61,098 bases of DNA from assembly GCA_944385625.1 (NCBI GenBank), contig CALWXZ010000004.1:1-61098 (forward strand), given 5' to 3'. This document shows, piece after piece, positions 39,397 through 47,890 of the stretch. Every line of letters begins with the position of its first letter. Positions within the stretch are counted from its first letter, which is position 1. The stretch comes from an uncultured Flavonifractor sp. (lineage in GTDB: Bacteria > Bacillota > Clostridia > Oscillospirales > Oscillospiraceae). The position numbers were made by a program, and so were the translations under genes. The notes below the pieces were generated by a model. That model was given only the letters and a program-made list of their open reading frames with translations, made no database searches and was not told where the DNA came from.

Positions 39397-39669
39397 ATGA
39401 AAATAAACAACATGACCAAACTGCTGTCTCTGACCCTGGCCGCCACTCTGTCCCTGACCGCCTGCGGGGGCGGCGAACCCGGTGCGGGCACCGGCTCCCA
39501 GATCACCCAGGCAGAGGCGAGGGGCACCACGCTTTCCCAGCTCCTCAGTCGCGGCGAGCGCATCTGGTATCTGGTGAGCAGCTCCGCCCAGAGCATCGGC
39601 AAGGACACCCAAGTGGAGCAGATCTTCCTGCTGGAGCCTGATGGCGGACATCATCTGGAAATCACCTGA
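39397..39669 (+). CDS. Small lipoprotein, probably truncated
   Basis: 90 residues. A lipoprotein signal peptide with lipobox LTAC (Cys23) is followed by a Gly-rich linker and the segment LSRGERIWYLVSSSAQSIGKDTQVEQIFLLEPDG, then a short unrelated-looking end. The body is too short to form an obvious domain and looks like the first part of a longer lipoprotein. AAAGGGGGAACC precedes the ATG. The stop lies 28 bases before the start of the large SLH protein gene, so the two are likely co-transcribed. Confidence 0.65.
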   Translation: MKINNMTKLLSLTLAATLSLTACGGGEPGAGTGSQITQAEARGTTLSQLLSRGERIWYLVSSSAQSIGKDTQVEQIFLLEPDGGHHLEIT

Positions 39670-39697
39670 TCCCATGATTGAGAGAGGAGCAAATTAT

Positions 39698-42600
39698 ATG
39701 AGCAGAAAATATATGGGTAGATGGACCGCCCGGCTTCTGGCCCTGTGCCTGAGTCTGGTCCTGTCCCTGGGCCTGGCGTCTCCGGCCCTGGCGGCTGCGG
39801 AGAAAGGCCAGTCCGGTTCTATCGGCGGCGTGTATGAGACCCATTACGAATCATCCGGCCAGACGTACGAGAAGCTGGCAGGCTATAACCCGAAGGACCC
39901 CGACACCTACAGCGACAGCGTCCGCTGGACCCTGGCGGGTGGTATACTCACCATCTCCGGCAGCGGCACCACCGCCGACTTCTACGGCACCAGCCCTTTT
40001 GAAGGGAACAGCGACATCGAAGTGGCGGTGGTGGAGAAGGGCGTCACCAGCCTTGGTGTCAATATGTTTGAAGATATGCCCAATCTGAAGGCCGTGATCC
40101 TGATGGATGCCTCCACCCGCTTTGAAAACGCCTTTGCCGATGACTTCCCCAGCCTGGAGGCCATCCTGGTGGGTGCGAATCTGGAGGGCGGCACCTACAC
40201 CACCCCCAACCTGGTCCGGGCGGAGGCACTGGAGTCCAAGATCCTCCCTCTGACCCACAATGTTCTGTTGAAATACGGTATGGAAAAGGGTATTCTGCCC
40301 GCCGACGGCAATATCGACCTTCTGTATGGCGGCGACATCACGACCATCATGAAGGACGGGACGCAAATCACCCCAACCGCAGACGAGATCACCCATGGCA
40401 TCTATTATCTCATTACAAGCAAGGACATCCGGTTCATCTCCTACGACGACATTCTGTCCATGGCCCGGGAGATTGTCCAGGACCTGCCCGGTGCCGTTCA
40501 GGACCTGCTGCCCGACCAACTGACCAGCGGCTCCACCCTGGACATGGACGCCACCTCCACAGAGGAGCCCGGCCAGACGGAGGAGCCCGTGGTCCCCGAG
40601 ACACCGGAGGGTATCACCGAAACCACCCAGAGCGTCTCCAACGGTCTGACCCACCTGCGCACCTCCTATAGCGAAAACGACTACCTGGACCTCTCCCTCA
40701 GCGGCAGCACCCTCACCGTCTCCGGCCGAATTGTGGCCGACGGCCTGCGGCAGATCCAGGTTACCCTTGGCAGCGGCGCCGGCAATACAGTAAGCGTCGG
40801 CAGCGGCGCATATTTCTCCATCCAGCTGAAGCTGACCTTCAGCGGCAGCAAGCCGCTGGGCGTCTATACCAATCGGGGCGGCGGCTCCACCTTCTCCAGC
40901 TATACCTATGACCGGATTTACATCCAGCAGACCGCCGGCGGCTACCAGATCATGCCCTCCCTGATTTTGGAACAAAACCAGCAGTACAACGAGAGCTATG
41001 TGTACCCCCAGAGTCTTTTGGAGCAGGAGGTACCCGACACCGTGGCCGCCATGTCCGATCAGATTGTGGGCAGCGAGACCGACCCCTACACCCAGGTGTT
41101 CCTGCTGCACCAGTGGGTGGCCAAGAACATCTCCTACGACTACACCATGCTGTCCGGCGCTCCCCGGGTGACCGATTCCGCCGGCGTGCTGGAGCTCCGC
41201 CGCAGCGTCTGTCAGGGCTATGCGGAACTGCTGCGGGATCTGATCCTGGCCCAGGGCATCCCGGCCATGACCTGCACCAACGACGCCCTCTACGGCTCCT
41301 ACGCCCTGACCACCTCCGGGGGGGAGTCCCACGCCCACACGGAGGCCTATGTCAACGGCCGCTGGGTGGTGATGGACCCCACCTGGGATTCCAGGAACAA
41401 GTACTACGGAGCGGCAAGCAGCTCCAATAAGCAGGAGTCCCCCAACGGCTACTTTTACTTTGACATCACCCCCGAGGCCTTTGCTCTGGACCACAAGATT
41501 ACCTCCCGGGGCGGCACCTGGCACATCGTATCCGACGGCGGCTTTCTTCTGGACCCGGAGGACCCCACCCGTCTGATCGGCTATGTGGGCCCCGCCGGCA
41601 AGGTGGTGGTCCCCGCCGGCATCACCACCATCGGTGAGAGCGCCTTCTCCCCCACCAACACCTGGACGCCCGCCTCCAGCGGCATCACGGAGATCGTGCT
41701 GCCCGACAGTGTAACCACCATTGAGAACACTGCCTTTTACAAGTGTACGGATCTGACCTCCGTTACCCTGCCGGAGGGCCTGCGCACCCTGGGTTCCATG
41801 GTCTTTGGGCAGTGTACCTCCCTGCGGTCCATTCAGCTTCCCGATACGCTGACCGCCATCGGACGGGAGGCCTTCTCCCACAGCGGCCTGACCTCCATCA
41901 CCATCCCCGACTCCGTGGTTTCCATCGGTGAGCTGGCCTTTACCTCCTGCCCCAACCTCCAGGAGATCACCATTCCCGGCGGCGTGCAGATTGGCGCCGG
42001 TATTCTGGCCAGCTGCAGCAGTCTCCGCCGGGTGGTGTTGGAGGAGGGTGCCCCCTCCATTCCCACGTCCACATTTTATAACTGTCCCGCTCTGACTGAA
42101 CTCTGCATTCCCTCCTCGGTCACCTCCGTGGGCAACGCGGCCCTGTATGGGTGTACCGCCCTGAAAGACGTCTACTACGGCGGCTCCCAGCAGCAGTGGA
42201 CGGCTGTTGACATCGGGGAGCGCAACACGCCCCTGAGCAAAGCCACCTTCCACTGGGGCACCGCCACCCAGGAGGAGGAGACGGGGGAGAAGGCCCCCAT
42301 TGTCAACGACTGGGCCGAAACCAATGTCCAGTCGGCGGCTGACCGCGGACTGATTCCCGACGGCGTACTGGGCGCCGATTACACCGCAAAGATTACCCGC
42401 GCCCAGTTTGCCGCTCTGGCGGTACATACCTACGAACACATCACAGGGGATACCGTCTCCGTAAAGACGGGCGACGATGTGTTTGCCGACAGCACCGGCA
42501 ATCCATACCTGGCCAAGGCCTACAATCTGGGCATTATCAAAGGCTACAACACCTCCGCCAGCCGCTCGGCGGTGAAGGTCGGGCCCGACGATTCCATCAC

Positions 42601-42850
42601 CCGGGAGCAGGCCGCCACCATGCTGGCCCGGCTGAGTCAGGTCCTCGGCAAACCCCTCTCCCCCGCCCCGCGGCTCCCCTTTACCGACGCCATCTCCCAC
42701 TGGGCCTATGACAGCGTGTGCGGGGTGTACCAGGCGGGCATTATGAACGGCACCAGCAGCGTCACCTTCAGCGCCCAGGGCAGCTATACCATCGAGCAGG
42801 CCATCACCACCATGTACCGCTGCGACGAGTGGGTGGGCGCAGACGCGTAA
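39698..42850 (+). CDS. SLH surface protein with transglutaminase-like and BspA-type leucine-rich-repeat domains
   Basis: 1050 residues. A signal peptide (to about residue 33, ending SPALA) is followed by a Pro/Glu/Thr-rich stretch near 290-310. The transglutaminase-like domain has the triad Cys505 (RRSVCQGYAEL), His545 (SHAHTEAYV) and Asp560 (VVMDPTWD). Next come LRR_5 (BspA) repeats at about 640-850, with recurrent ITEIVLPDSVTTI and LTSITIPDSVVSI blocks, and three SLH units at the C-terminus (about 865-1050). It is presumably held on the wall polymer by SLH and modifies or binds surface proteins or host matrix. AGAGGAGC precedes the ATG. Confidence 0.92.
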   Translation: MSRKYMGRWTARLLALCLSLVLSLGLASPALAAAEKGQSGSIGGVYETHYESSGQTYEKLAGYNPKDPDTYSDSVRWTLAGGILTISGSGTTADFYGTSPFEGNSDIEVAVVEKGVTSLGVNMFEDMPNLKAVILMDASTRFENAFADDFPSLEAILVGANLEGGTYTTPNLVRAEALESKILPLTHNVLLKYGMEKGILPADGNIDLLYGGDITTIMKDGTQITPTADEITHGIYYLITSKDIRFISYDDILSMAREIVQDLPGAVQDLLPDQLTSGSTLDMDATSTEEPGQTEEPVVPETPEGITETTQSVSNGLTHLRTSYSENDYLDLSLSGSTLTVSGRIVADGLRQIQVTLGSGAGNTVSVGSGAYFSIQLKLTFSGSKPLGVYTNRGGGSTFSSYTYDRIYIQQTAGGYQIMPSLILEQNQQYNESYVYPQSLLEQEVPDTVAAMSDQIVGSETDPYTQVFLLHQWVAKNISYDYTMLSGAPRVTDSAGVLELRRSVCQGYAELLRDLILAQGIPAMTCTNDALYGSYALTTSGGESHAHTEAYVNGRWVVMDPTWDSRNKYYGAASSSNKQESPNGYFYFDITPEAFALDHKITSRGGTWHIVSDGGFLLDPEDPTRLIGYVGPAGKVVVPAGITTIGESAFSPTNTWTPASSGITEIVLPDSVTTIENTAFYKCTDLTSVTLPEGLRTLGSMVFGQCTSLRSIQLPDTLTAIGREAFSHSGLTSITIPDSVVSIGELAFTSCPNLQEITIPGGVQIGAGILASCSSLRRVVLEEGAPSIPTSTFYNCPALTELCIPSSVTSVGNAALYGCTALKDVYYGGSQQQWTAVDIGERNTPLSKATFHWGTATQEEETGEKAPIVNDWAETNVQSAADRGLIPDGVLGADYTAKITRAQFAALAVHTYEHITGDTVSVKTGDDVFADSTGNPYLAKAYNLGIIKGYNTSASRSAVKVGPDDSITREQAATMLARLSQVLGKPLSPAPRLPFTDAISHWAYDSVCGVYQAGIMNGTSSVTFSAQGSYTIEQAITTMYRCDEWVGADA

Positions 42851-43003: not shown

Positions 43004-43558
43004 TTATGAACTGCACCGCCTGCAAAAACAGGTCTCCTCATGGGAATTGATTACACCCACCGCCTGCAAATAGGAATAGATGATAACACTCCCCACAAAC
43101 TTCATGCCCCGCTCTTTCAGATCCTTGGAAACGGCATCCGACAGCGGGGAGCTGACCTTGCCCGTCTCACAGATCACTTTTCCCTCCGTCCAGTGCCAGA
43201 GGTAGCGGTCAAAGCTCCCCCACTCCCGCTGGATCACGCGAAAGATCCGGGCGTTATTTACGGCGGCCCTGATTTTCAGTCTGTTCCGGACGATACCGGA
43301 ATCCTGCTCCAGCGCAGCCAGCTTTTCATCCCCGTATTCGCAGACCTTCTCCAGGTCAAAGCCATCAAAGGCCCGGCGGAAAGCCTCCCGCTTGTTGAGG
43401 ATGCACGCCCAGGAAAGTCCCGCCTGAAAGCTCTCCAAAATCAACATTTCAAATAACTTGGGGTCATCATGGACGGGGATGCCCCACTCCTCATCGTGGT
43501 ACCGGGCATAAAGCCCACGGTCGGATTTGACCCAACTGCATCTGACCCTTTCCGTCAT
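43004..43558 (-). CDS. tag: DNA-3-methyladenine glycosylase I
   Basis: 184 residues. Tag hallmarks: RCSWVKSD, YHDEEWGIPVHDD, ESFQAGLSWACILNKREAFRRAF and the C-terminal zinc ligands of HEETCFCRRC. It excises 3-methyladenine from alkylated DNA. It is a single gene between converging surface-protein and divergent sigma-factor transcription units. Confidence 0.95.
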   Translation of the reverse strand: MTERVRCSWVKSDRGLYARYHDEEWGIPVHDDPKLFEMLILESFQAGLSWACILNKREAFRRAFDGFDLEKVCEYGDEKLAALEQDSGIVRNRLKIRAAVNNARIFRVIQREWGSFDRYLWHWTEGKVICETGKVSSPLSDAVSKDLKERGMKFVGSVIIYSYLQAVGVINSHEETCFCRRCSS

Positions 43559-43600: not shown

Positions 43601-43753
43601 AAATAAAACTACTTTTAACCAAACTTTTCCCCCCCCCTTTTTTCTACGCGGATAAAACCTTCGCCTCCATTCTCGTGACTACTTAGTGGAATCAAAGATG
43701 GAGGCGATTGGCCGTGACCTTATTTGAATGGGTCCGTGAATGCCTGCGGTGGA

Positions 43754-43775
43754 ACGCGGCCCGAGCCGCCCCTAA
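43754..43775 (-). repeat. Degenerate REP-like hairpin
   Basis: On the minus strand TTAGGGGCGGCTCGGGCCGC resembles the first part of the GTAG-hairpin elements at 342 and 500, with a GCGGC/GCCGC stem. The GTAG is changed to TTAG. It is a weak match in the leader of the sigma-sensor gene. Confidence 0.35.
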
Positions 43776-43816
43776 CTGCAGAAAACAAGTAGAAACTGTC
43801 ATGGAGGAACAAACGG

Positions 43817-45754
43817 ATGGAACGGACACAGATTGCAGCGCTAGTGCAGAAGGCCCGGGCGGGCGATAAAGCGGCCATGTCCAGCCTGTTGGAGACGGCC
43901 TACGGCTCGGTGATCTTCCAGTGCCGGAAGATCATGCAGCATCCCGAGGACGCCGAGGATATGGCCCAGGAGGTGGTTCTGACCATCTACCAAAACCTAG
44001 GGAAACTCCAGGACCCGGAAAAATTCCTGGGCTGGTCCAATCGCATCGCCGCCCATATGTGCCTCAACCAGAAGCAGCGCCACCCCAAGGACCTTCAATT
44101 TCTGGAGGACGAAAACGGCCGAAGTTTTCTGGACACCATCGAGGACGCCGACCAGCAGCACGTTCCCGACGCGGTCCTGGACAACGAGGAGACAAAGAAA
44201 ATGGTGGTGGACCTAATCGACGCCCTGCCCGAGGCCCAGCGGACCGCCGTCTACCTCTATTACTATTCGGAAATGAGCGTCCGGGAGATTGCCGCCCTGA
44301 CCGGTGTGTCAGAGAACACCGTTAAAAGCCGCCTCAACTACGGGCGCAAGGCCCTCAAGGACGGCTTCCTGGGCTATGAAAAGGACGGCGTCAAGCTCTA
44401 CAGCTTCTCTCCGCTGCCCTTCCTGCTGCTGCTGCTCCGCGGCGCCGCCGAATCCCAGGCCGATCCGGCCGCTGCGGCGGCCGCGGTTGGCTCCCTTCTC
44501 ACCAGCAGCGGAGCCGCTACCGCCGGCGCAGGCGAAGTTGCCGGTGCGTCCGGTGCCGCGGCGGGCGGAGCGGGTACTGCCGCCGGAACGGCCGCAGCCG
44601 CTGGCGGCGGGATTCTAAGCGCCGTCAGCGCCAAAGTGGTGGCTGCCATTCTGGCCGGAGCGGTGGCGGTGGGCGGCGTCACCGCCGGTGTATCCACCCT
44701 TTTGAATGGAAAAGCAGACACACCGGGAGCCACGGACGGGTCGGGTCCGCTGGCCTCCTACACCATGCGGCGCACCACCGTACTGGAACAAGAGGCCGGG
44801 TTAATCGGCATTGTGCTGGAGACCCCTCTGTTTGACGAGGTCAGCCAGGGCTACCGGGAGATCAACGCCTATTTTGACCCCATCCACGCTGCCTTCAATC
44901 CGGAGGAGAACTCCAATGTTGCCGCCATGCTGTCCATCTACCAGGGCGGCGGAGACGCCGCAGAATATATTGCCCGGTACGATGTGTCCTATCAGGATGC
45001 GTCCTATGTCAGTATGCGTCTGCGGGAATCCATCTGGCCCACGGAGACCTTTCCTACGAGCGATCGGACCAGCTTTACCTTCGATACCCGGACCGGGCAG
45101 CTGCTGGAACTGACCGACCTGTATGAGGGCAGCGAGGAGGAGATTGCCGCCCAGATGGCCCAGCTGATCCGGGAGTATGGTTACGGCCGGTATCTGAACA
45201 GCGACAACTACCCCACGGCCCGCGACGGCTTTGTCCTCTCTTCTCAAACCACGGGGGAAACGACGGCGTACGCTCACCTGGCATTTCAGGAGGGACAGCC
45301 TGTATACTGGTGGCACCTTGACGACACGGTAGATGACGTATGTATTCCTCTGCCGGCGACCCTGCCGGAGGCTGCGGACACCGAGATACCGGCGGACGAG
45401 GGCAGGCTGCCATCCTACACGGCCCACCGGACGGAACTTGACACGGGGCGCAGCAACATCCAGATGTCCATTGAAACGCCGGTCTTTGACTCCGACGCGG
45501 AGGGCTATCAGGCCATCAACGCCTTCTGGGAGGAGGCCCACCGGGAATATGTGGAGGATGAGTATTACACCATCCTTGGCCAGCTAATCTTCCGGGGCGG
45601 CGGCTACGCCCACACCAGCTTCGAGGTGACGGAGCAGACGGAGGACCGGGTTGTGATCCGCCTGATCGGCCGGATCAAGGCCGGAAATGACCTGTCTGAA
45701 CCGGTCACCGAATACGTCTTTGACGCCCAAACCGGAGAATTGCTGAGCGGCTGA
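43817..45754 (+). CDS. ECF sigma factor fused to a transmembrane segment and extracellular RsiV/DUF3298-like sensor repeats
   Basis: 645 residues. Residues 1-185 form an ECF sigma factor: region 2 with DAEDMAQEVVLTIYQNLGKLQDPEKFLGW, and region 4 with LPEAQRTAVYLYYYSEMSVREIAALTGVSENTVKSR. An Ala/Gly-rich linker (about 215-270) leads to one clear membrane segment at 274-296 (VVAAILAGAVAVGGV...). The outer part holds two related units, starting SYTMRRTTVLEQEAG (about 315) and SYTAHRTELDTGRSN (about 535), each with ETPxFDxxxxGYxxINAxx, the pattern of DUF3298/RsiV anti-sigma ectodomains. So sigma, membrane anchor and sensor are one polypeptide; activity would need proteolytic release. GGAGGA precedes the ATG. 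No separate anti-sigma gene is adjacent. Confidence 0.85.
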   Translation: MERTQIAALVQKARAGDKAAMSSLLETAYGSVIFQCRKIMQHPEDAEDMAQEVVLTIYQNLGKLQDPEKFLGWSNRIAAHMCLNQKQRHPKDLQFLEDENGRSFLDTIEDADQQHVPDAVLDNEETKKMVVDLIDALPEAQRTAVYLYYYSEMSVREIAALTGVSENTVKSRLNYGRKALKDGFLGYEKDGVKLYSFSPLPFLLLLLRGAAESQADPAAAAAAVGSLLTSSGAATAGAGEVAGASGAAAGGAGTAAGTAAAAGGGILSAVSAKVVAAILAGAVAVGGVTAGVSTLLNGKADTPGATDGSGPLASYTMRRTTVLEQEAGLIGIVLETPLFDEVSQGYREINAYFDPIHAAFNPEENSNVAAMLSIYQGGGDAAEYIARYDVSYQDASYVSMRLRESIWPTETFPTSDRTSFTFDTRTGQLLELTDLYEGSEEEIAAQMAQLIREYGYGRYLNSDNYPTARDGFVLSSQTTGETTAYAHLAFQEGQPVYWWHLDDTVDDVCIPLPATLPEAADTEIPADEGRLPSYTAHRTELDTGRSNIQMSIETPVFDSDAEGYQAINAFWEEAHREYVEDEYYTILGQLIFRGGGYAHTSFEVTEQTEDRVVIRLIGRIKAGNDLSEPVTEYVFDAQTGELLSG

Positions 45755-45824: not shown

Positions 45825-47717
45825 TCAGTCAAATTTCCGGTCATAGAGCAGCGCGGCAATGAGCACCACAAAACAGGACCCGGCGTTGTGTACCAGCGCC
45901 CCGGTGGTGGGGGTAAGTACCTCCAGCAGCGAAAGGACAATGGCCACAAAGTTGATACACATGGACAGGGTGATGCTGGCCTTGATGGTTTTCACCGTGG
46001 CGTCGGACAGCCGCTTGAGATAGGGGATTGCGGACAGGTCGTCGCGGATGAGGGCCACCTCCGCCGCATCCACCGCAATGTCGCTGCCCATGCCACCCAT
46101 AGCCACGCTGACGTCGGCGCTCTTCAGCGCGGGGGCGTCGTTGACCCCGTCGCCGATCATACAGACCCTGTGGCCCTGCCCCTGGAGCGCCCGGATGTAC
46201 GCCACCTTCTCTCCCGGCAGCAGCCCGGAGCGGACCTCACCAATGCCCGCCTGCTGGGCAAAATAGCGGGCGGCAGTTTCGTGGTCGCCGGTGAGCAGCA
46301 CGGTACTTACGCCCATATCGGCCAGGTGGGCGGACATGGCCCCGGCCTCCGGCCGCAGCACATCGGACAGGGCAATGATCCCCAGGCACCGCCCGTCCTC
46401 CGCCACCAGGATGGACGCCTTGCCCTGCCGGCGCAGCGCCCCAAGCCGCTCCGCTCCGGCGCCCTCCAGGGCGATCCCCCAGGCCCGGAGGAAGTCCTCG
46501 CTGCCGCACGCCAGACTTCTCCCCGCCACCCGGGCGGCAATCCCCCGGCCGGCGGTCATTTCAAAGTCCGTACACTCCAAAATGGGGACTGTTCTCTCTC
46601 TGGCGCAGTCCACAACGGCCCGCCCCAGGGGGTGTTCGCTTCTCGCCTCAGCTGAGGCGGCCAGGGAGAGCAGCCCCGCCTCGTCCAGTTCCTGGACAAG
46701 GGGGATCACATCGCATACCTCCAGCCGGCCGCAGGTAAGGGTGCCCGTCTTGTCAAAGGCGATAACATCCACCCTGCCCATCTTTTCCAGGGCCTGGCCG
46801 GATTTGATAATGACGCCGTGCCTGGTGGCCTGACCGATGGCCGCCATGACGGCGGTGGGGGTGGCCAGCACCAGGGCGCAGGGGCAAAAGACCACCAGCA
46901 CCGTCACCGCCGTGACCATGTTGCCGGAGAAGACATAGGCCAGAATGGCAATGAGCAGGGCCAGCGGTACCAGCCAGCTGGCCGCCCGGTCGGCAATGCG
47001 CTGTATGGGCGCCTGCCTGTTTTCCGCCTCCTGTACCATACGGATCAGTTTGTGCAGGGAGCTGTCCTCCCCCACCTTGGTGGCTATCATATCGAAGGAC
47101 CCGAACCGGTTGATGGTGCCGCAGAACACCGCCTCACCCACCCCCTTGTCCACCGGCAAAGACTCCCCGGTCATGATGGACTGGTCCACCGAAGTTTCCC
47201 CATTTACGATGGTCCCGTCCACCGGGACGGTCTCGCCCGGCCGGACCCGAAGCAGATCTCCCCGCCGGATCTCCTCCGCCAAAATCACTTCCTCCCCGCC
47301 ATCGGTCAGCCGCCGCCCCTTGACCGGCGCCAGGCGGAGCAACTGCCTGAGTCCCTTCTTGGCCCGGTTGGTGGTGGCCTCCTCCAGCAGCGCGCCGATG
47401 GCCATGATAAAGGCCACCTCCCCCGCGGCAAACAGGTCCCCGATGGCAATGGCGGCTACCATGGCGATGGAGATGAGCAGCGCCGAGGAGATCTTGCTGA
47501 TCCCCGGGTTGTGAACAATCCGCCACAGGGCCAGATAAAGTAGGGGTATTCCACTGATGAACACAGTCACCCAGGCCGGATCGAAGGGCAACAGCCTCAG
47601 ATGGGAGCCGCCCCCCAACTCCCCCATCAGGTGGGGCACCAGATCAAACAGCAGAAAGATCCCCGCCACAATGGTCATGGGCAGCCCGGCAAGAAAATCA
47701 CTGCATCTTTTGAGCAT
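45825..47717 (-). CDS. Heavy-metal-translocating P1B-type ATPase
   Basis: 630 residues from the ATG at 47717 (GGAGGG upstream). P-type hallmarks: actuator IMTGESLPVDKG, the membrane metal site FCPCALVLATPTAV, phosphorylation loop FDKTGTLTCG and hinge MIGDGVNDAPALKSADV. The CPC motif and lack of an N-terminal metal-binding domain fit a Zn/Cd/Co or Cu/Ag exporter; the C-terminal MCINFVAIVLSLLEVLTPTTGALVHN resembles ZntA/HMA-type pumps. It is divergent from a TetR regulator, with an inverted repeat between them. Confidence 0.92.
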   Translation of the reverse strand: MLKRCSDFLAGLPMTIVAGIFLLFDLVPHLMGELGGGSHLRLLPFDPAWVTVFISGIPLLYLALWRIVHNPGISKISSALLISIAMVAAIAIGDLFAAGEVAFIMAIGALLEEATTNRAKKGLRQLLRLAPVKGRRLTDGGEEVILAEEIRRGDLLRVRPGETVPVDGTIVNGETSVDQSIMTGESLPVDKGVGEAVFCGTINRFGSFDMIATKVGEDSSLHKLIRMVQEAENRQAPIQRIADRAASWLVPLALLIAILAYVFSGNMVTAVTVLVVFCPCALVLATPTAVMAAIGQATRHGVIIKSGQALEKMGRVDVIAFDKTGTLTCGRLEVCDVIPLVQELDEAGLLSLAASAEARSEHPLGRAVVDCARERTVPILECTDFEMTAGRGIAARVAGRSLACGSEDFLRAWGIALEGAGAERLGALRRQGKASILVAEDGRCLGIIALSDVLRPEAGAMSAHLADMGVSTVLLTGDHETAARYFAQQAGIGEVRSGLLPGEKVAYIRALQGQGHRVCMIGDGVNDAPALKSADVSVAMGGMGSDIAVDAAEVALIRDDLSAIPYLKRLSDATVKTIKASITLSMCINFVAIVLSLLEVLTPTTGALVHNAGSCFVVLIAALLYDRKFD

Positions 47718-47772
47718 CCCAAATCCCTCCCCCTCTTGACAGCACACGCCATCTTCCGTACACTGAATAAGA

Positions 47773-47793
47773 TAACAAACACCTTGTTCGTTT
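47773..47793. promoter_or_regulatory. Candidate operator between the ATPase and TetR genes
   Basis: AACAAACACCTTGTTCGTT is an imperfect inverted repeat (AAC(A/G)AAC arms) located in the divergent region, a plausible TetR binding site controlling both genes. Confidence 0.4.
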
Positions 47794-47890
47794 TTATTGT
47801 ACCCAGGTGGGGATGGTGAAGCAAGGGATGATTGGCCTCCCATGTTCCCTACCGAACATTTCATGAAACTTGTACGGGAGGGAAGTGCCT

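Follow-up and report, generated by a model that had tools for sequence, protein, structure and literature searches.

The window, a 61,098-nucleotide stretch of DNA from an uncultured Flavonifractor sp., encodes a single polypeptide in which an ECF sigma factor is followed by a membrane anchor and by an exterior whose first unit is a divergent DUF4163(PdaC)-DUF3298 domain of the RsiV kind. Comparison with related sequences indicates that this protein is no oddity but one member of a modular family, in which a constant sigma cassette is combined with varying exteriors. We consider it rather probable that the protein is a membrane-tethered receptor-sigma factor, which would be silent while tethered and would be freed by proteolysis after a surface signal. 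The starting points for this reading are the fusion itself, the single predicted transmembrane segment, the type of exterior, the family and the association with neighbouring genes, all of which can be read from sequence (Table 1).

Table 1. Features of the fused sigma gene and its surroundings (positions are those of the window; residues are those of the encoded protein)
Feature	Position	Strand	Evidence
Gene of a surface protein (transglutaminase-like, LRR_5, SLH), perhaps a target or partner	39641..42850	+	Pfam
Stable predicted RNA hairpin	43658-43711	+	z -3.25 against shuffles; the small ORF's Shine-Dalgarno-like sequence is base-paired in it
Small upstream ORF, 51 aa, GTG start, overlapping the sigma start and perhaps belonging to the unit	43714..43869	+	GGAGG ahead of the start
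Whole gene, ECF sigma factor, transmembrane anchor and exterior as one polypeptide, 645 aa	43817..45754	+	Open frame, ortholog L009, 42 collected members
ECF sigma regions 2 and 4, residues 4-183	43826..44365	+	Pfam Sigma70_r2, Sigma70_r4_2 and Sigma70_ECF
Conserved hydrophobic motif DGVKLYSFSPLPFLLLLLR, residues 190-208, directly past region 4	44384..44440	+	Alignment of members
Ala/Gly-rich linker, residues 209-273	44441..44635	+	About 80% A/G/S/T, three charged residues
Sole transmembrane segment, residues 274-292, N-terminus predicted inside	44636..44692	+	Hydropathy, charge balance
Exterior unit 1, PdaC/DUF4163-like half, residues 310-430	44744..45106	+	Profile comparison with RsiV-like proteins; alignment with L012 and L113
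Exterior unit 1, divergent DUF3298-like half, residues about 431-518 (limits approximate)	45107..45370	+	Profile comparison, alignment
Exterior unit 2, partial repeat, PdaC-like half alone, residues about 529-645	45401..45751	+	Identity to unit 1

The open reading frame of the fused gene is unbroken over its whole length. Pfam scans matched Sigma70_r2 at residues 31-88 (2e-7) and Sigma70_r4_2 at residues 129-180 (4e-17), and the Pfam and NCBIfam matches that identify an ECF sigma factor lie within residues 4-184. No second transmembrane segment was found by hydropathy, and approximately 350 residues are placed on the outside, giving an ECF sigma factor with a C-terminal membrane-spanning extension of the kind seen in the fused IutY, ECF48, ECF52 and ECF53 proteins. 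Both immediate neighbours, a methyladenine glycosylase gene (43004-43558) and a P-type ATPase gene (45825-47864), are encoded on the opposite strand, and no anti-sigma gene adjoins the fused gene; L005, one of this genome's ordinary ECF genes, has an anti-sigma neighbour (zf-HC2). A canonical SigV-RsiV pair is formed by two adjacent genes, an arrangement from which the single frame of the window gene departs. Pfam (E up to 5) detected no known anti-sigma domain, zinc finger or other, in the full protein, although a divergent one might still be present in the extension. The description given in the earlier note, of complete ECF regions 2 and 4, one transmembrane segment and an RsiV-like (PdaC-DUF3298) sensor in one polypeptide with no separate anti-sigma factor, is in these respects borne out, the likeness of the exterior resting on the profile links described below.

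That two genes were merged by a sequencing or assembly error is hardly conceivable. The assembly of the window genome is fragmented (190 contigs), but an identical fusion is found in a second uncultured Flavonifractor from a different assembly (L009), whose protein is 84% identical to that of the window in the sigma part plus motif and 63% identical over 235 aligned positions of the exterior. Because this ortholog shows the same fusion and 42 distinct fused proteins, the window protein included, were collected, both chance and assembly error were excluded.

The exterior of the window protein (residues 305-645) returned no match in direct scans of Pfam (E up to 5) and NCBIfam, and a phmmer comparison with solved structures gave a single chance-level row (E 1.5). 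Its relation to RsiV emerges through intermediates. A fused protein of the same genus, L012, has an exterior that passes the Pfam cut-off for DUF3298 (37.5 bits against 24.1), its PdaC match (18.7) staying under the cut-off of 29.1, and a profile built from the exteriors of the window protein and L009 finds that of L012 in a genus-wide search (E 3.9e-7). When compared by hhalign with a profile of 16 of the 29 RsiV-like matches found, the window and L009 exteriors together reached 92.6%, and 95.6% once L012 was added; taken singly, L012, L009 and the window exterior reached 97.4, 89.5 and 71.2, respectively, and the other 39 exteriors at most 10.7. The kinship with DUF4163/PdaC and DUF3298 that had been suggested for the exterior is therefore upheld by the indirect links through L012 and hhalign, the direct Pfam comparison of the window protein being empty. 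A structural model of the exterior computed from a two-row alignment (window and L009) had a mean pLDDT of 41.9, which is too poor for use. Counting the genomes of the window protein and of its ortholog, this type of exterior occurs in four of 20 genomes of the genus. The profile of the window and L009 exteriors also finds a separate lipoprotein-like protein of 577 residues in G017 (L113:337-2067, + strand; E 2e-11), which contains a PdaC-DUF3298-like stretch, has no Pfam match at 0.01 and is encoded close to a fused sigma gene (L018).

The exterior had also been described as a tandem of two related sensor units marked by repeated motifs of the type ETPxFDxxxxGYxxIN. The window protein does contain both motifs, ETPLFDEVSQGYREIN and ETPVFDSDAEGYQAIN, in related stretches, with 33% identity between unit 2 and the opening half of unit 1 across 121 positions (E 4e-14). 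However, unit 2 ends at the point where a DUF3298 half would start and repeats just the PdaC-like half, so that a complete tandem sensor was rejected. The half-duplication is found in the window copy only: unit 2 searched against the DNA of L009 matched unit 1 and no second unit, and the duplication is missing from both L009 and L012, the other DUF3298-type members.

The RsiV-like character of the exterior raises the question of its signal, for which lysozyme had been proposed. The exterior of RsiV is described as a PdaC(DUF4163)-DUF3298 domain in a one-TM protein that controls an ECF sigma factor, with Tyr255, Glu256, Gly260 and Tyr261 among the listed lysozyme contacts and Ser169, Pro259 and Tyr261 called critical for lysozyme binding (PMC5014341). 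By our own mapping of the letters, residues 255-261 fall in the loop FDEYEVAPGYMG of the solved RsiV structure 5jen. This loop, of the form FDxYExAPGYMG, is missing from the DUF3298-like half of the window protein; a pattern made for it is absent from the window protein and from L009, and is present in altered form in L012. Among 26 of the 29 RsiV-like matches (L086, L094 and L103 were left out), 21 proteins, the separate one of the window genome among them, display the pattern and the other five display near forms. Elsewhere, the window genome harbours a separate SigV-RsiV-like pair and so contains both systems; the RsiV-like protein of this pair matches 5jen (7e-22) and retains the lysozyme-contact loop. 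The absence of the loop from the fused protein, together with this separate loop-bearing pair, makes a role of the fused protein as a lysozyme sensor unlikely. Moreover, a related DUF4163-DUF3298 protein is reported not to bind lysozyme (PMC5014341). A lysozyme receptor of the RsiV type fused to its own sigma factor, a notion that draws on the PdaC-DUF3298 type of the exterior, is hence quite improbable, and this part of the earlier proposal was not supported; some wall or surface ligand other than lysozyme is the probable signal of this copy. At L081 (G000 contig 15), where a canonical SigV-like gene accompanies a loop-bearing RsiV-like gene, an SLH-domain frame lies close by.

The window genome encodes three more fused proteins, each with another exterior. 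A search profile made from 12 sigma-plus-motif segments was run on 250 genomes of the window's family, a fused member being defined as a frame of at least 400 residues whose match reaches model column 193 or further. Among matches down to about E 2e-33, fused members were found in at least 23 of these genomes, the window's own included, with two further members cut by contig ends, and the 50 frames recovered were reduced to 42 distinct proteins, among them that of the window. By similar criteria, 12 of 340 genomes of the class (own genome excluded) contain a fused member, and 11 fused proteins from elsewhere in the class were inspected. A sample of 398 genomes of the phylum (E up to 1e-41) yielded L145, a sigma-TM-exterior protein that lacks the motif, and a frame of 280 residues in G695, the remaining matches beyond the own genome being frames of about 200-235 residues. 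The class search also returned frames of approximately 1050 residues in G512:C84, G448:C2 and G316:C64, in which the ECF match stops near region 4; these are possibly another sort of long fused sigma protein.

The collected proteins share the sigma part, the motif, the linker and the transmembrane segment, and differ in their exteriors. A single TM-like segment is found in 41 of the 42 (L055 has a second stretch nearby), and in 41, with one tie, the inner flank carries the more positive charge, as expected if the N-terminus lies inside. An Ala-X-Ala signal-peptidase motif just beyond the transmembrane segment, present in 12 of the 42, is absent from the window protein. In the hydrophobic motif, Leu194 and Pro199 are invariant among 12 aligned family members, and 33 of the 38 members for which the motif form is given (out of 42) fit a loose pattern; ordinary ECF frames that match through region 4 extend just 0-24 residues beyond the match. 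The exteriors, many of which carry Pro/Thr-rich stalks, include Big_2, RCC1, S41 peptidase, DUF6273, DUF3298 and LRR-like types as well as types of no known family. Besides that of the window, 20 exteriors were scanned: seven pass a Pfam cut-off (DUF3298, RCC1, Peptidase_S41, DUF6273 and three Big_2), one is LRR-like below the cut-off and 12 have no family above it. Single-linkage clustering divides the 42 exteriors into 19 clusters, a number that is approximate, as contig ends truncate some exteriors and L018 seems to contain a frameshift.

When mapped onto a tree of 53 sigma parts, the exterior types do not track the sigma phylogeny. Big_2 exteriors are split between two groups far apart on the tree, and the three members of the DUF3298 type are not grouped together either, L012 being placed among proteins with another exterior type; for Big_2 and for DUF3298 each, well supported branches force at least two changes. 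Exchange is only occasional, since the labels are still clustered overall (nine changes compared with 18.9 in shuffles), and either loss and replacement or transfer may underlie the pattern. Two tandem paralogs of G015 are 91% identical in the sigma part plus motif and 69% in the linker plus transmembrane segment, and a comparison of their exteriors revealed no meaningful similarity (best E 3.8). An RCC1 exterior is carried by a fused sigma protein of G197 whose neighbour, an SLH protein, also contains RCC1 repeats (L045/L181); the exterior may have been copied from this neighbour.

An association with SLH surface proteins is apparent among the fused genes. Of 21 regions with a fused gene, 17 have an SLH frame at most 5 kb from it (15 of them at about 1.1 kb or less), compared with two of 21 ordinary ECF controls (one of 20 by position, plus the SigV-RsiV locus L081; Fisher p 6e-6), a comparison in which the fused regions are not independent because several hold related genes, nine of the ten segments that seeded the SLH profile come from neighbours of fused genes, and contig ends leave less than 5 kb on at least one side in eight of the 20 controls and also cut some fused regions. 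Pfam confirmed SLH in all ten of the 17 fused neighbours that were checked, and no SLH gene was found in the fetched stretch of the other four of the 21 regions. Among the ordinary controls, the distance to an SLH frame is 45 bp in one and 5.6 kb, just beyond the 5 kb limit, in another; the window genome as a whole contains 90 SLH matches in 2.5 Mb. The SLH neighbour in the window resembles (41% over 762 positions) the SLH protein encoded beside the ortholog, whose gene is located on the opposite side of the sigma gene. The association and the similar protein beside the ortholog make the SLH gene the first candidate target.

Inspection by eye of the 42 upstream regions showed no shared promoter; several resemble ordinary TTGACA/TATAAT promoters, which argues against tight self-regulation. 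Rfam (E up to 0.1) returned no match upstream of the window gene. The small ORF that overlaps the start of the sigma gene differs from its counterpart in L009, over 30 codons, at 9, 0 and 15 first, second and third codon positions, as expected for a coding gene. Related small ORFs precede the fused sigma gene in L009, L011, L040, L072 and perhaps L044, and a model built from six such peptides found four peptides at E < 1e-11 in a genus search, all before fused sigma genes and all among the six used for the model. The encoded peptide may serve as a leader, as a coupling peptide or as a small regulator.

By analogy with IutY, ECF52 and RsiV, a sequence of events may be proposed for the window protein. 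While tethered, the sigma part would have no access to RNA polymerase, held back by its anchorage alone or by the motif past region 4, which would fold back on it; this motif, which is common to members with unrelated exteriors, is the best candidate for a silencing element. Perception of a surface signal by the exterior would lead to cleavage on the outside, followed by an intramembrane cut by an RseP-like site-2 protease, and the freed sigma part would then transcribe its target genes, one of which may be the SLH surface-protein gene nearby. An RseP-like protease gene was found in the window genome; as M50 proteases were matched in all 14 control genomes, its presence lends weak support. Since the exteriors differ, each paralog would watch its own surface condition. 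Counting against this scheme are the failure to detect a known anti-sigma domain and the lack of the signal-peptidase motif in the window copy.

The presence of one motif beneath unrelated exteriors would also suit a conformational switch, in which the motif clamps the sigma part, the signal loosens it and the still-tethered sigma factor reaches RNA polymerase without proteolysis, the long flexible linker possibly allowing it to reach DNA. We regard such a switch as unlikely, though deserving of attention: the tested fused relative, the sigma/anti-sigma protein IutY of Pseudomonas putida (ECF243), is described as being processed by Prc and RseP (PMC8999054), and a second structure model based on the two-row alignment of the window protein and L009 (mean pLDDT 36.6) is too poor to show packing of the motif on the sigma part. 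Less likely still is an exterior that acts as a wall-binding or structural domain and not as a sensor, with constitutive release of the sigma factor or release through protein turnover. Several exteriors are indeed common surface-protein modules (Big_2, RCC1, LRR-like) and many members have Pro/Thr-rich stalks, but 19 sorts of exterior on one sigma factor are hard to explain unless the exteriors carry information. The proteolytic release suggested in the earlier note is plausible, and we retain it as the probable reading for the family.

Fusions of ECF sigma and anti-sigma factors are already known in IutY, ECF36, ECF48, ECF52 and ECF53 (PMC8999054, PMC5826349, PMC5411451). IutY resembles the window protein in uniting an ECF sigma factor and a membrane-bound regulator in a single chain, but it belongs to an iron-starvation cell-surface signalling system and has its own anti-sigma part, whereas the window protein has no detected known anti-sigma domain, an Ala/Gly linker and exteriors that vary between paralogs. 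ECF52 (SCO4117, Streptomyces) is described as joining an ECF sigma factor, a transmembrane segment, a Pro-rich stretch and an exterior carbohydrate-binding domain in one protein (PMC5826349), for which proteolytic release has been proposed (PMC5826349, PMC8999054). ECF52, ECF48 and ECF53, described as actinobacterial, carry a zinc-finger domain, in contrast to the window protein, in which Pfam found none and whose exterior type differs between paralogs. In the SigV-RsiV systems of Bacillus and Clostridioides the two proteins are separate, and RsiV binds its sigma factor through a cytosolic part and bears the loop that contacts lysozyme; the window protein has the same kind of exterior, but it is fused to the sigma factor and lacks the loop. 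SigI is not counted among the ECF factors, and in the SigI-RsgI sets of Clostridium thermocellum sigma factor and regulator are separate proteins, unlike the window protein. For this species, nine RsgI factors for different substrates are described, and RseP cuts RsgI within its transmembrane segment (PMC12203970). Judged by title or abstract opening, the literature searched described no clostridial proteins in which sigma factor and sensor form one chain and the exterior varies, although a numbered group of the 2021 ECF classification may already cover the sigma part. What is new beside the known fused ECF proteins is the modular form, a constant sigma cassette with a varying exterior.

More tentatively, and with slightly less than even confidence, we suggest that the Clostridia, chiefly the Oscillospiraceae, possess a large family of one-component receptor-sigma factors with interchangeable exteriors, in which each copy watches one surface condition and governs the SLH protein encoded next to it. 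If this is true, these proteins would be bacterial counterparts of Notch and similar membrane-tethered receptors, with surface sensing by a single protein where the textbook arrangement has a sigma factor and a separate anti-sigma factor. They would link poorly understood surface domains (LRR-like, RCC1, Big_2, DUF6273 and those of no known family) to transcription and open a way into how SLH surface proteins are regulated. As the cassette is shared while the exteriors vary, the pathway lends itself to testing by exterior swaps; the cassette would also be a ready-made component from which receptors could be built in laboratory strains.
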